Below the pieces are notes generated by a model, which saw nothing but the letters and a program-made list of their open reading frames with translations, ran no database searches and was not told the origin of the DNA. The translations under genes and the position numbers were made by a program. Shown here piece after piece: positions 32,396 to 35,966 of a DNA stretch of 64,000 bases. The first letter of the stretch is position 1. The number at the start of each line of letters is the position of its first letter. The DNA is from Streptomyces sp. BK208 (GTDB lineage: Bacteria > Actinomycetota > Actinomycetes > Streptomycetales > Streptomycetaceae): assembly GCF_004364245.1 (NCBI RefSeq), contig NZ_SOAV01000009.1, positions 248,001 to 312,000 on the forward strand, given 5' to 3'.

Positions 32396-33063
32396 CCGAC
32401 ACCGCCGCCATCGGCTGCCCGCCCGCACACCGCCCGACGGCCACCGCCATCGGCTGCCCGCCCGCACACCACCCGACGGCCACCGCCATCGGCTGCCCGC
32501 CCGCACACCACCCGACGGCCACCGCCATCGGCTGCCCGCAGGCACGCCGTTCGACCACCGCCGCCACGCCCTACGGCCGTCCACCCGCACTCCGTTCGGC
32601 TGCCACCGCCTCCGGTTCTCCCCAGGCGCTCCCCGCGACCGCCACCGTCCGCCCGCCGACCGCCAACGCCTCCGGCCGTCCACCCGCGCTCCGTTCGGCT
32701 GCCACCGTCTCCGGTTCTCCCCGGGCGCTCCCCGCGACCGCCACCGTCCGCCCGCCGACCGCCAACGCCTCCGGCCGTCCACCCGCACTCCGTTCGGCTG
32801 CCACCGCCTCCGGTTCTCCCCGGGCGCTCCCCGCGACCGCCACCGTCCGCCCGCCGACCGCCAACGCCTCCGGCCGTCCGCAGGCACGCCGTTGGACCGC
32901 CACCGGCTCCGGGCGGCCACCCACGCCCCGTCGGACCGCCGCCGCCTCCGGCCGCCCCCAGGCACACCGTTGGACCGCCACCGACACCCCCGGGACCGTC
33001 CCGCCCCCCGCCGCAGAGAGCCGGCCGGTGGGCCTGCGCCCGGCGTCGGAGGTCACGGCATGA
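32392..33063 (+). CDS. Tandem-repeat ORF of uncertain coding status
   Basis: 223 residues, frame continuous from a GTG overlapping the LysR stop to a TGA overlapping the beta-lactamase ATG. The product would be Ala/Pro/Thr/Arg-rich: three copies of AIGCPPAHHPTAT, then three copies of a 33-residue unit starting GRPPALRSAAT, then degenerate 13-residue units. No known domain, signal peptide or membrane segment. Because the repeat periods (39 and 99 bp) are multiples of three, other frames are open too, so translation cannot be inferred from openness. The flanks look like a duplicated LysR/beta-lactamase junction, so this may be expanded spacer DNA. Confidence 0.35.
   Translation: MTDTAAIGCPPAHRPTATAIGCPPAHHPTATAIGCPPAHHPTATAIGCPQARRSTTAATPYGRPPALRSAATASGSPQALPATATVRPPTANASGRPPALRSAATVSGSPRALPATATVRPPTANASGRPPALRSAATASGSPRALPATATVRPPTANASGRPQARRWTATGSGRPPTPRRTAAASGRPQAHRWTATDTPGTVPPPAAESRPVGLRPASEVTA
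32407..32523. repeat. 39-bp tandem repeat, three units
   Basis: Units start at 32407, 32446 and 32485 with GCCATCGGCTGCCCG and are nearly identical. A fourth, divergent unit starts at 32524. Confidence 0.9.
32575..32871. repeat. 99-bp tandem repeat, three units
   Basis: Units start at 32575, 32674 and 32773 with GGCCGTCCACCCGC, differing at only a few bases. Degenerate shorter units continue to about 32990. Near identity points to recent expansion. Confidence 0.92.
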
Positions 33064-34458: not shown

Positions 34459-34479
34459 GAGCGGTCGGGAAAACCGCTC
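34459..34479. promoter_or_regulatory. Perfect inverted repeat upstream of the ThrRS leader
   Basis: GAGCGGT (34459-34465) and ACCGCTC (34473-34479) form a 7-bp dyad with a 7-nt spacer, ending about 22 bp upstream of the -10 element. It could be an operator, or a terminator for the 33985-34356 gene. Confidence 0.45.
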
Positions 34480-34501
34480 GCGTCCGCGCCCGTCCCCCCG
34501 C

Positions 34502-34507
34502 TAGCGT
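34502..34507 (+). promoter_or_regulatory. -10 element of the ThrRS leader transcript
   Basis: TAGCGT lies 7 nt before the leader-peptide ATG at 34515, so ribosomes would load directly on the 5' end. Confidence 0.5.
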
Positions 34508-34514
34508 CCGCTCC

Positions 34515-34571
34515 ATGAAGCGCGCCAGTGCGTCCTCGATGACGACGCCGGGAACGTCCCCGGCGCGCTGA
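34515..34571 (+). CDS. Threonine-containing leader peptide of the ThrRS attenuator
   Basis: Eighteen codons: MKRASASSMTTPGTSPAR then TGA. Codons 10, 11 and 14 are all ACG (Thr), and no proline- or leucine-type run competes with them. The start follows a leaderless promoter. The peptide ends 16 nt before a perfect terminator stem. A hairpin (GCCGGG 34547-34552 with CCCGGC 34559-34564) begins at the second Thr codon, the position expected for ribosome-controlled folding. The product itself probably has no function; translation speed is the signal. Confidence 0.75.
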   Translation: MKRASASSMTTPGTSPAR

Positions 34572-34586
34572 CTGCTGACCCAAGTC

Positions 34587-34618
34587 CGAAGCCCCGGGGC
34601 GAGTGCCCCGGGGCTTCG
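34587..34618 (+). terminator. Attenuator terminator ahead of the second thrS
   Basis: A 14-bp perfect stem (CGAAGCCCCGGGGC with GCCCCGGGGCTTCG, GAGT loop) lies between leader peptide and synthetase. CCCCGG at 34558-34563 in the leader can pair with CCGGGG at 34594-34599, giving a mutually exclusive antiterminator. Confidence 0.8.
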
Positions 34619-34658
34619 TCGCGCGGTGCTCGTCCTGGACCGTTCCGAGGAGACCACC

Positions 34659-35966
34659 GTGCCCCACCAGGACCGGCACCCCGAGCCCGGCCGGCACCCC
34701 GGCCACGCCGACGCCCACGACCGTGACCACGCCGACGACCGCGCCCACGCCCACGACCACCGGCGCCTCGGCCGCGAACTGGCGCTGTTCGACACCGACC
34801 CCCTCATCGGCGCGGGCCTGCCGTACTGGCTGCCCGACGGCGCGGTCGTGCGCCACACCCTGGAGGAGTACGTCCGCGAGGCGGAGCGCCGGGCCGGTTA
34901 CCGGCACGTCTACTCGCCCGTCCTCGGCAAACGCGAGCTGTACGAGATCTCGGGGCACTGGGAGCACTACCGCGACGACATGTTCCCGCCGATGGAGCTG
35001 GGCTCCGAGGAGGTCGTGCTGCGCCCGAGCCTGTGCCCCCACCACGCCCTCGTCTACCGCTCCCGCGCCCGCAGCTACCGCGAGCTTCCCCTGCGCATCG
35101 CCGAGCTGGGCGCGATGTACCGCTCCGAGCCCTCCGGCGTACTCGGCGGACTGACCCGGGTACGGGCCATCCACCTCAACGACGCGCACGTCTTCTGCAC
35201 CCCGGACCAGGCCGCCGGCGAAGCGCGCGCCGCCCTCGGGCTGATCCGCCGCGCCCACGCCGACCTCGGCATCCGGGCCGCCCGCTACCGCCTGTCCCTG
35301 CCGGGGCCCGGCGGCAAGTACGTCGCCGACCCGGAGCTGTGGCGGCGGTCCACCGCACTGCTCGAAGAGGCCCTGGACGGACTGCCGTACGAGGCGGCGG
35401 AGGGCGAGGCCGCCTTCTACGGCCCCAAGATCGACGTGCAGATCGAGGACCCGGCCGGCCGCGAGTCGACCCTGTCGACCGTACAGATCGACTTCCACCA
35501 GCCCGCACGCTTCGGCCTGCGCCACATCGGCCCCGACGGCACCGCGCACCGGCCGGTCATGGTGCACCGCAGTGTCATCGGCAGCGTGGAACGCGTGGTC
35601 GCCCACCTGATCGAGGCGCACGGCGGCGCGTTCCCGGCGTGGCTGGCCCCGGTGCAGCTGGTGGTGCTGCCGGTGGCCGAGGCGCAGCGGGACAGGGCCC
35701 ACGCCCTCGTCCGGCGGGCCGTCGAGCGAGGGCTGCGCGCCGAGGTCGCCGACCCGGAGCGCGGCAGCCTCGGCGCCCGGGTCCGGGCGGCGCGCAAGGT
35801 GCCGTACCAGGCGGTGATCGGCGGGCGGGAGGCCCGGGAGGACGATCTGGTCGACGTACGCCTGCGGGACGGCCGCCGCCCCGGCCGGCTGTCCGGGACC
35901 GAGCTGCTGCGCCGGATCGCCGACCGGGTCGGGGCACGCGGCCCCGAGCTGTGGGAACCGGCCTGA
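34659..35966 (+). CDS. thrS: Second threonyl-tRNA synthetase, lacking editing domain, His-rich N-terminus
   Basis: 435 residues against about 640 for full ThrRS. The TGS and editing domains are missing and replaced by about 45 residues rich in His and Asp (HPGHADAHDRDHADDRAHAHDH). The class II core is intact: motif 2 RSEPSG, motif 3 HRSVIGSVERVV, and the three zinc ligands Cys (RPSLCPHHA), His (LNDAHVF) and His (VMVHRS). An anticodon-binding domain follows (LPVAEAQRDRAHAL). It should charge tRNA-Thr but not proofread seryl-tRNA. The GTG at 34659 follows GAGGAG by 6 nt. Expression is probably controlled by the Thr leader attenuator. A housekeeping thrS should exist elsewhere. Confidence 0.92.
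   Translation: MPHQDRHPEPGRHPGHADAHDRDHADDRAHAHDHRRLGRELALFDTDPLIGAGLPYWLPDGAVVRHTLEEYVREAERRAGYRHVYSPVLGKRELYEISGHWEHYRDDMFPPMELGSEEVVLRPSLCPHHALVYRSRARSYRELPLRIAELGAMYRSEPSGVLGGLTRVRAIHLNDAHVFCTPDQAAGEARAALGLIRRAHADLGIRAARYRLSLPGPGGKYVADPELWRRSTALLEEALDGLPYEAAEGEAAFYGPKIDVQIEDPAGRESTLSTVQIDFHQPARFGLRHIGPDGTAHRPVMVHRSVIGSVERVVAHLIEAHGGAFPAWLAPVQLVVLPVAEAQRDRAHALVRRAVERGLRAEVADPERGSLGARVRAARKVPYQAVIGGREAREDDLVDVRLRDGRRPGRLSGTELLRRIADRVGARGPELWEPA

Follow-up and report, generated by a model that had tools for sequence, protein, structure and literature searches.

Why should the gene for a second threonyl-tRNA synthetase (ThrRS) be preceded by a short ORF with threonine codons and a strong hairpin, and how could this hairpin act when no U-tract follows it? 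The question is raised by thrS2 in the window (here, the whole 64,000-nt stretch of Streptomyces DNA analyzed). The reading favored here, with a probability of roughly 0.6, is that the region upstream of thrS2 would be a leader-peptide attenuator sensing threonyl-tRNA, with a leaderless promoter of the WblC/WhiB7 type driving it and the auxiliary ThrRS gene behind it, and would work through the switch proposed below.

The thrL-thrS2 locus and its product

The leader itself is already known: S. lividans TK24 has a thrL (SLIV_19412) upstream of thrS (SLIV_19410), as reported in 2021 (PMC8079986 Table 4), and its peptide (MKRVRPFLETTPGFVPAR, then stop) is identical to two of the leaders considered here (L005 and L006). 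RNA-seq in S. lividans showed thrL to be leaderless, with termination called “not clear” (PMC8079986). That locus resembles the present one in its orthologous leader, leaderless transcription start site, and single hairpin without a U-tract before a ThrRS gene; the report differs in covering one species and offering no mechanism, and it does not include element F, its X:F pairing, the class-wide distribution, or the ACG/ACC partition described below. Attenuators of Streptomyces trpS2 and leuS had also been predicted, in 2005 (PMC1262725). An earlier note on this DNA, which held that such control was not established for an actinobacterial tRNA synthetase, was in this respect mistaken. The thrL-thrS2 leader is real, and an outline of it had been published for one species. 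What appears to be new, from sequence comparison, is F with its X:F alternative, which would make up a conserved translation-level switch, together with the codon partition; neither was found described in the literature searched, and a 2010 review by Lopatovskaya et al. (cited in PMC4833913) may mention thrS.

The anatomy described in the earlier note (-10 element, 18-codon ORF, hairpin, pairing of CCCCGG at 34558-34563 with CCGGGG at 34594-34599, 14-bp stem, and ThrRS gene) was found in place (Table 1). The locus thus has what is expected of an attenuator, a short leader ORF with clustered cognate codons ahead of the gene for a ThrRS. Given how close the -10 element is to the leader ATG, transcription is probably leaderless. 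D and E form a perfect 14-bp stem around a GAGT loop, and the predicted fold of RNA 34508-34660 beats 200 of 200 shuffles (z -4.2). An Rfam scan of the whole window found no family at gathering score, the T-box covariance model included.

Table 1. Features of the thrL-thrS2 region (window coordinates; letters name pairing elements)
Feature	Position	Strand	Remarks
WblC/WhiB7-type box GAAAAC (consensus GAAAWY)	34469-34474	+	3 nt 5′ of weak -35
-35 TCGCGT	34478-34483	+	weak match; 18-nt spacer to -10
-10 element TAGCGT (TANNNT)	34502-34507	+	7 nt 5′ of leader ATG at 34515
Leader peptide ORF thrL, 18 codons, MKRASASSMTTPGTSPAR then stop	34515-34571	+	ATG start, UGA stop
Element A, GCGCGCC	34520-34526	+	within KRA codons; by folding, partner of 3′ part of C if leader is ribosome-free
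Regulatory Thr codons ACG ACG (codons 10-11)	34542-34547	+	conserved; codon 14 ACG (34554-34556) is window-specific
Element B, CGCCGGG	34546-34552	+	5′ arm of leader hairpin with C; near-invariant
Element C, CCCCGGCGCGC	34558-34568	+	partner of A, B, or D; from sequence and relatives
Element D	34587-34600	+	5′ arm of 14-bp attenuator hairpin; from sequence, fold, alignment
Element X, GGGCGAGTGCC	34597-34607	+	hairpin apex, alternative partner of F; from covariation in three sets
Element E	34605-34618	+	3′ arm of attenuator hairpin, then TCGCGC (no U-tract); from sequence, fold
Element F, GGTGCTCGTCC	34625-34635	+	anti-Shine-Dalgarno (anti-SD) strand; from duplex stability, covariation
Element G, thrS2 SD region CCGAGGAGACCACC	34645-34658	+	SD GAGGAG at 34647-34652; sequestered by F in default fold
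thrS2, 435-aa ThrRS	34659-35966	+	GTG start; catalytic core and anticodon domain, no editing domain

WblC promoters have a GAAAWY box 3 nt before the -35, a 16-19 nt spacer, and a TANNNT -10, and thrS2 of S. coelicolor is given as a representative WblC-activated gene (PMC7157823). The window promoter has exactly this spacing, with a weak -35 hexamer. A strict GAAAWY box lies 30-36 nt 5′ of the -10 in 42 of 87 relatives (0.1 expected from shuffles), at 32-33 nt in 39 of these; a relaxed A-rich box is found in 71 of 87.

By its sequence, thrS2 is a genuine second thrS, and its product has the makeup of an editing-deficient auxiliary enzyme: it matches TIGR00418 (437.5 bits), its only domains are PF00587 and PF03129, so that the TGS and editing domains are absent, and it is 43% identical to the full-length ThrRS encoded elsewhere in the same genome (L002). 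Of 393 congeneric genomes, 174 have a copy at E ≤ 1e-130. In each of the 50 copies read, His-Gln stands where E. coli ThrRS has Ser488-Leu489 (Asn-Leu in the housekeeping ThrRS), while Tyr462-Gly463 is kept (positions in E. coli numbering). In ObaO, which is resistant, Met takes the place of Leu489, a residue close to the obafluorin site, although the L489M change was not enough by itself to abolish binding of obafluorin (PMC11252418). Since His-Gln adjoins the borrelidin/obafluorin pocket, it suggests that ThrRS2 might be an inducible, drug-tolerant backup enzyme. The N-terminus (34703-34760) carries a His/Asp/Ala-rich low-complexity repeat (HADAHDRDHADDRAHAHDHRR) of variable length among relatives, possibly a metal-binding tail.

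Conservation of the leader and its threonine codons

Conservation was assessed by reading the DNA that precedes thrS2 at 90 loci of the genus, that of the window and 89 from congeners. All 90 have the core ACGACG(ACG)CCGG...CCGGCGCGC and the hairpin, and 88 have an in-frame start 6-7 nt after a TANNNT box; the exceptions, L012 and L074, have a lost start or a frameshift. The consensus peptide is M[KQ]RA-x(n)-TTTP[ED]xVPAR, then stop: its N-terminal part varies in length, while the distance from the Thr triplet to the stop is fixed. ACG is found at the first Thr codon in 80 of 84 leaders, at the second in all 84, and at the third in 83, bearing out the earlier note's expectation that the ORF and its Thr codons would be conserved in Streptomyces. 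Of the three ACG codons it singled out (10, 11, and 14), all are present and the first two are conserved; that at codon 14 is peculiar to the window. Judged from these relatives, the ancestral pattern is three consecutive ACG codons, the first of which has been lost in the clade of the window. In the window it is now ATG (34539-34541), with an ACG gained at codon 14, where the S. lividans-like clade has GAG. This is a natural variant on which the number of Thr codons required could usefully be tested.

Searches with R1, a covariance model built on the leader, recovered it from 7 of 9 sampled genera at the level of the order and from 15 of 103 at that of the class, including Streptosporangium, Microtetraspora, Sphaerisporangium, Marinitenerispora, and Allosalinactinospora. 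No such leader lies within 400 nt upstream of the housekeeping thrS (28 genes). In the source genome, the housekeeping thrS (L002, upstream of position 739) is preceded by TACGAT with an ATG 7 nt later; this ATG, some 50 nt ahead of the true start, opens a small ORF that is not Thr-rich.

A few genomes carry additional copies. L124 (G177:C66:11700-13550) is a second leader before a second thrS2, giving two thrL-thrS2 units in one genome; L123 (G335:C1:1150900-1152700) is a second leader that has lost its ATG (CACGGAGCGCGCC) and has no ThrRS after it. L126 (G428:C23:40100-41800) looks like what a deletion left behind: a decayed leader containing an internal TAG (GCCTTAGAG) is joined to the 3′ end of a thrS2-like gene, and an intact copy lies on C22 of that genome.

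Synonymous choice within the leader also points to RNA pairing. Among the Arg codons of element A in relatives, CGG is never used (0 of 78, against 41% expected; P 1.9e-18), and among its Ala codons GCG and GCA together account for 3 of 75 (40% expected; P 7e-13). By these counts, synonymous choice in A is constrained to keep its pairing with C.

The Thr codons of leader and gene are partitioned. Aligned leader Thr codons are ACG in 247 of 252 cases, whereas 77 thrS2 coding regions have 808 ACC and 4 ACG among 828 Thr codons; 73 of the 77 have no ACG, and in the window's own thrS2 all nine Thr codons are ACC. Other codon boxes in thrS2 are not short of G-ending codons (GCG 0.35, CGG 0.42, CCG 0.54, GTG 0.41), genes neighboring thrS2 in the window use ACG freely, and ACG makes up 27% of Thr codons in the housekeeping thrS (28 genes). 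The thrS2 genes are also Thr-poor (2.6% of residues vs. 4.5%). The use of ACG in the leader may be partly dictated by RNA pairing; its avoidance in thrS2 is not. This avoidance fits the selective-charging theory of tRNA isoacceptors (PMC1183508), in which a sensor relies on a codon sensitive to starvation and a responder does without it; in Streptomyces, ACG would be the sensitive codon. With almost no ACG, thrS2 would therefore still be translated during the starvation to which it responds. This division of codons offers a clean natural test of selective tRNA charging.

The hairpin and an anti-Shine-Dalgarno strand

The nine nt after the GC stem average 3.8 U in the genus, and uninterrupted U stretches reach a maximum of 2 in 73 of 90 relatives. 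In L237-L246 (family f21) the GAAG...CTTC lower stem is gone, while the apex, CCGGGGCGAG.GCCCC, persists. U-tracts are absent both after the hairpin of the genus relatives and after the shorter hairpins of L237-L246, so that neither has an intrinsic terminator with a U-tract; since the apex is nonetheless kept, termination is not the conserved feature, although termination at D:E may add a transcriptional layer.

The earlier note had proposed that the Thr codons, both pairings, and the terminator should covary. The codons, pairings, and hairpin are all conserved; covariation is not seen, the arms being nearly invariant. RNAalifold on the full leader recovered just the invariant stems and gave no covariation information, and the A:C, B:C, and C:D pairings are beyond the reach of covariation because A, B, C, D, and E hardly vary. 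All relatives have the complementarity for the mutually exclusive helices, with invariant arms, but in equilibrium folding forced C:D costs 12.5 kcal/mol on average relative to the D:E hairpin state. Three other pairings were considered and rejected: that of the ACG codons with CGTCGT after the hairpin, which is not conserved; C:E as an alternative to C:D, which fails by eye where E is CCGGAGC (L237, L239, L240, L241); and a pseudoknot of intact D:E with X:F, since both compete for almost the whole stem in L237-L246.

The stretch separating the hairpin from the start codon contains F (GGTGCTCGTCC in the window; most relatives have GGTCACTCGCCC), with G (GCGAGGAGACC) as its partner. The SD is paired with a probability of 0.81 in the default fold of the window; among relatives, SD pairing is 0.76, vs. 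0.68 with a shuffled 5′ side (P 5e-8). Anti-SD/SD duplexes lose stability when native partners are swapped (z -8, 0/2000), and two-sided changes number 37 against 26 in shuffles of the genus set (A1). Covariation of F:G is also seen in a second set, whose alignment, however, had been fitted to this pairing; the class-level set has F:G 91.8% paired, near-invariant, and without covariation. As in translational attenuators, the SD of thrS2 thus lies in a conserved helix.

F has a second partner, the hairpin apex X. X:F was noticed in A1 and examined in two further non-overlapping sets, A2 (41 further sequences) and A3 (34 class-level sequences); it was absent from the model behind the second and third alignments, and A2 and A3 played no part in forming the idea. 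Paired cells amount to 95.2, 94.6, and 97.4% in A1, A2, and A3, with 13, 12, and 7 two-sided changes vs. 1.4, 2.9, and 1.2 in shuffles (0/500 each); when the partners are slid by 1-3 columns, pairing falls to 34-57%. In L033, L111, and L251, F tracks changes in X while the SD keeps its GAG. The F positions opposite GGG of X are almost exclusively C or U, giving G-C or G-U pairs, even though they lie in the F:G loop, which argues that F:X is selected in its own right. As F emerges only once the hairpin has been transcribed, X:F comes too late to affect termination at that site; its target must be the read-through mRNA, and the simplest effect would be to free the SD. A conserved, covarying X:F implies control of thrS2 translation initiation.

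With C:D forced, the SD is still mostly paired at equilibrium (0.75 vs. 0.77), and a simple thermodynamic switch was therefore rejected. The ON state must instead be kinetic and co-transcriptional, since D:E with F:G always wins at equilibrium; this kinetic state is the least secure step of the proposal. C:D and full X:F cannot both be complete, because they share GGGGC. Covariation backs the X:F pairing, a candidate for the alternative that would free the SD, to which stalling on the leader would presumably be coupled.

The proposed switch and its alternatives

When tRNA-Thr is charged, the leader ribosome would run to the UGA and cover C; D and E would then pair, burying X and leaving F on the thrS2 SD (OFF). 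If the ACG-decoding tRNA-Thr is uncharged, through Thr limitation or a ThrRS inhibitor, the ribosome would stall on ACG-ACG(-ACG), masking B and leaving C free for D as D emerges. The D:E hairpin would be delayed, and the apex X could capture F while F is being transcribed, leaving the SD open (ON). On a leader without a ribosome, A:C or B:C would occupy C (OFF). By standard footprints, a ribosome on any of the Thr codons should mask B and free C, and one at the stop should cover C. The earlier note's proposal that a stalled ribosome masks B and frees C agrees with this: a conserved Thr-codon leader is suitably placed for it before the second ThrRS gene. Sequence comparison supports the leader, the Thr codons, the hairpin, F:G, X:F, and the codon partition; the order of events, C:D as the trigger, and the physiological signal are as we infer them.

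The earlier note took the locus for classical ribosome-mediated transcription attenuation, with D:E as intrinsic terminator and C:D as antiterminator; on that reading F:G would be a mere GC-rich hairpin. The note's observations are confirmed, and its interpretation is partly supported: a Thr-codon leader sensing tRNA-Thr charging is the best reading, but classical termination is doubtful because there is no U-tract, the antiterminator is so much weaker than D:E, and the conserved SD-sequestering element was missed. The anatomy of leader, Thr codons, and hairpin would suit it, as would the A/U-flanked stems of several relatives (e.g., AAAAGCCCC...GGGGCTTTT in L034); there is precedent in the Streptomyces trpS attenuator, and S. 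lividans trpL2 likewise lacks a U-rich stretch. However, U-tracts are missing even after the shorter hairpins, and a pure terminator gives no reason for the downstream F to coevolve with the hairpin apex. Overall, it seems unlikely. Rho-dependent termination, in which an untranslated leader would expose the RNA to Rho and the hairpins would only modulate leader translation, fits C-rich RNA without a U-tract and has been suggested for Mycobacterium cys leaders (PMC1262725). It does not need the strictly conserved hairpin arms, loop, X:F, and F:G, visual inspection of the leaders revealed no rut-like conserved stretch, and we consider it very improbable.

Still less can be said for the two remaining explanations. 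ThrRS2 might act on its own message by binding close to the SD, in the way that E. coli ThrRS binds a tRNA-like operator; the gene product is of the right kind and the SD region is structured, but the leader peptide, ACG codons, and leaderless promoter would be superfluous although they are the most conserved parts, and the CGU-containing stretch after the hairpin is not conserved, making such feedback hardly credible. The leader ORF might be constitutive, recruiting ribosomes to thrS2 without sensing anything, as leader genes have been proposed to boost translation of nearby genes (PMC4833913). It would have to do so across about 85-110 nt of structured RNA between thrL stop and thrS2 start, and without accounting for the strict conservation of Thr codons and pairing elements; its chances appear equally slight.

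The preferred reading can be made more specific, though at no better than even odds: the leader would be mainly a translation-initiation attenuator, with one anti-SD strand choosing between the SD and the opened apex, an ACG sensor and an ACC responder, and a backup synthetase made under starvation, kept from Streptomyces to relatives of Streptosporangium. It would offer a concrete answer to the question of how the hairpin of S. lividans thrL can function with no U-tract behind it, and suggests that leader control of actinomycete tRNA synthetases may act at translation initiation via a chain of helices, in addition to WblC promoter control.

Vecchione and Sello reportedly found, in 2010, that the auxiliary trpRS1 of S. 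coelicolor is under ribosome-mediated attenuation; we take trpRS1 to be a drug-resistant auxiliary copy, in that respect like thrS2. Together with the Streptomyces trpS2 and leuS attenuators (PMC1262725), it shares with thrL-thrS2 a cognate-codon leader peptide before an aminoacyl-tRNA synthetase gene, but the codons there are for Trp or Leu. The trp and leuS attenuators were described with poly-U terminators (PMC1262725), whereas the thrS2 leader has no U-tract and a conserved SD switch. In the translational attenuators of ermC, ermB, and cat, stalling on a leader peptide likewise changes SD accessibility; unlike the case proposed here, stalling is drug-dependent and the hairpin lies directly over the SD, while for thrS2 the signal would be uncharged tRNA, passed on through a chain of helices. 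In the E. coli thr, trp, and his attenuators, too, the position of the regulatory codons lets a stalled ribosome determine the choice of hairpin; they end in U-tract terminators, and we know of none in which a covarying anti-SD strand has the apex of the terminator as a second partner. The E. coli thr leader uses ACC codons (PMC1183508), in contrast to ACG here. The WblC/WhiB7 regulon includes thrS2 among its activated genes (PMC7157823), in keeping with the GAAAWY/-35/TANNNT spacing; while WblC sets promoter activity, the leader would add a Thr-specific checkpoint.

Elsewhere in the window, where a LysR-type regulator gene meets a serine-hydrolase/beta-lactamase-like gene, tandem repeats of 39, 78, and 99 bp, with up to 98% matches, occupy 32396-33014; in several frames their translations are repetitive and rich in Pro/Ala/Thr/Arg.
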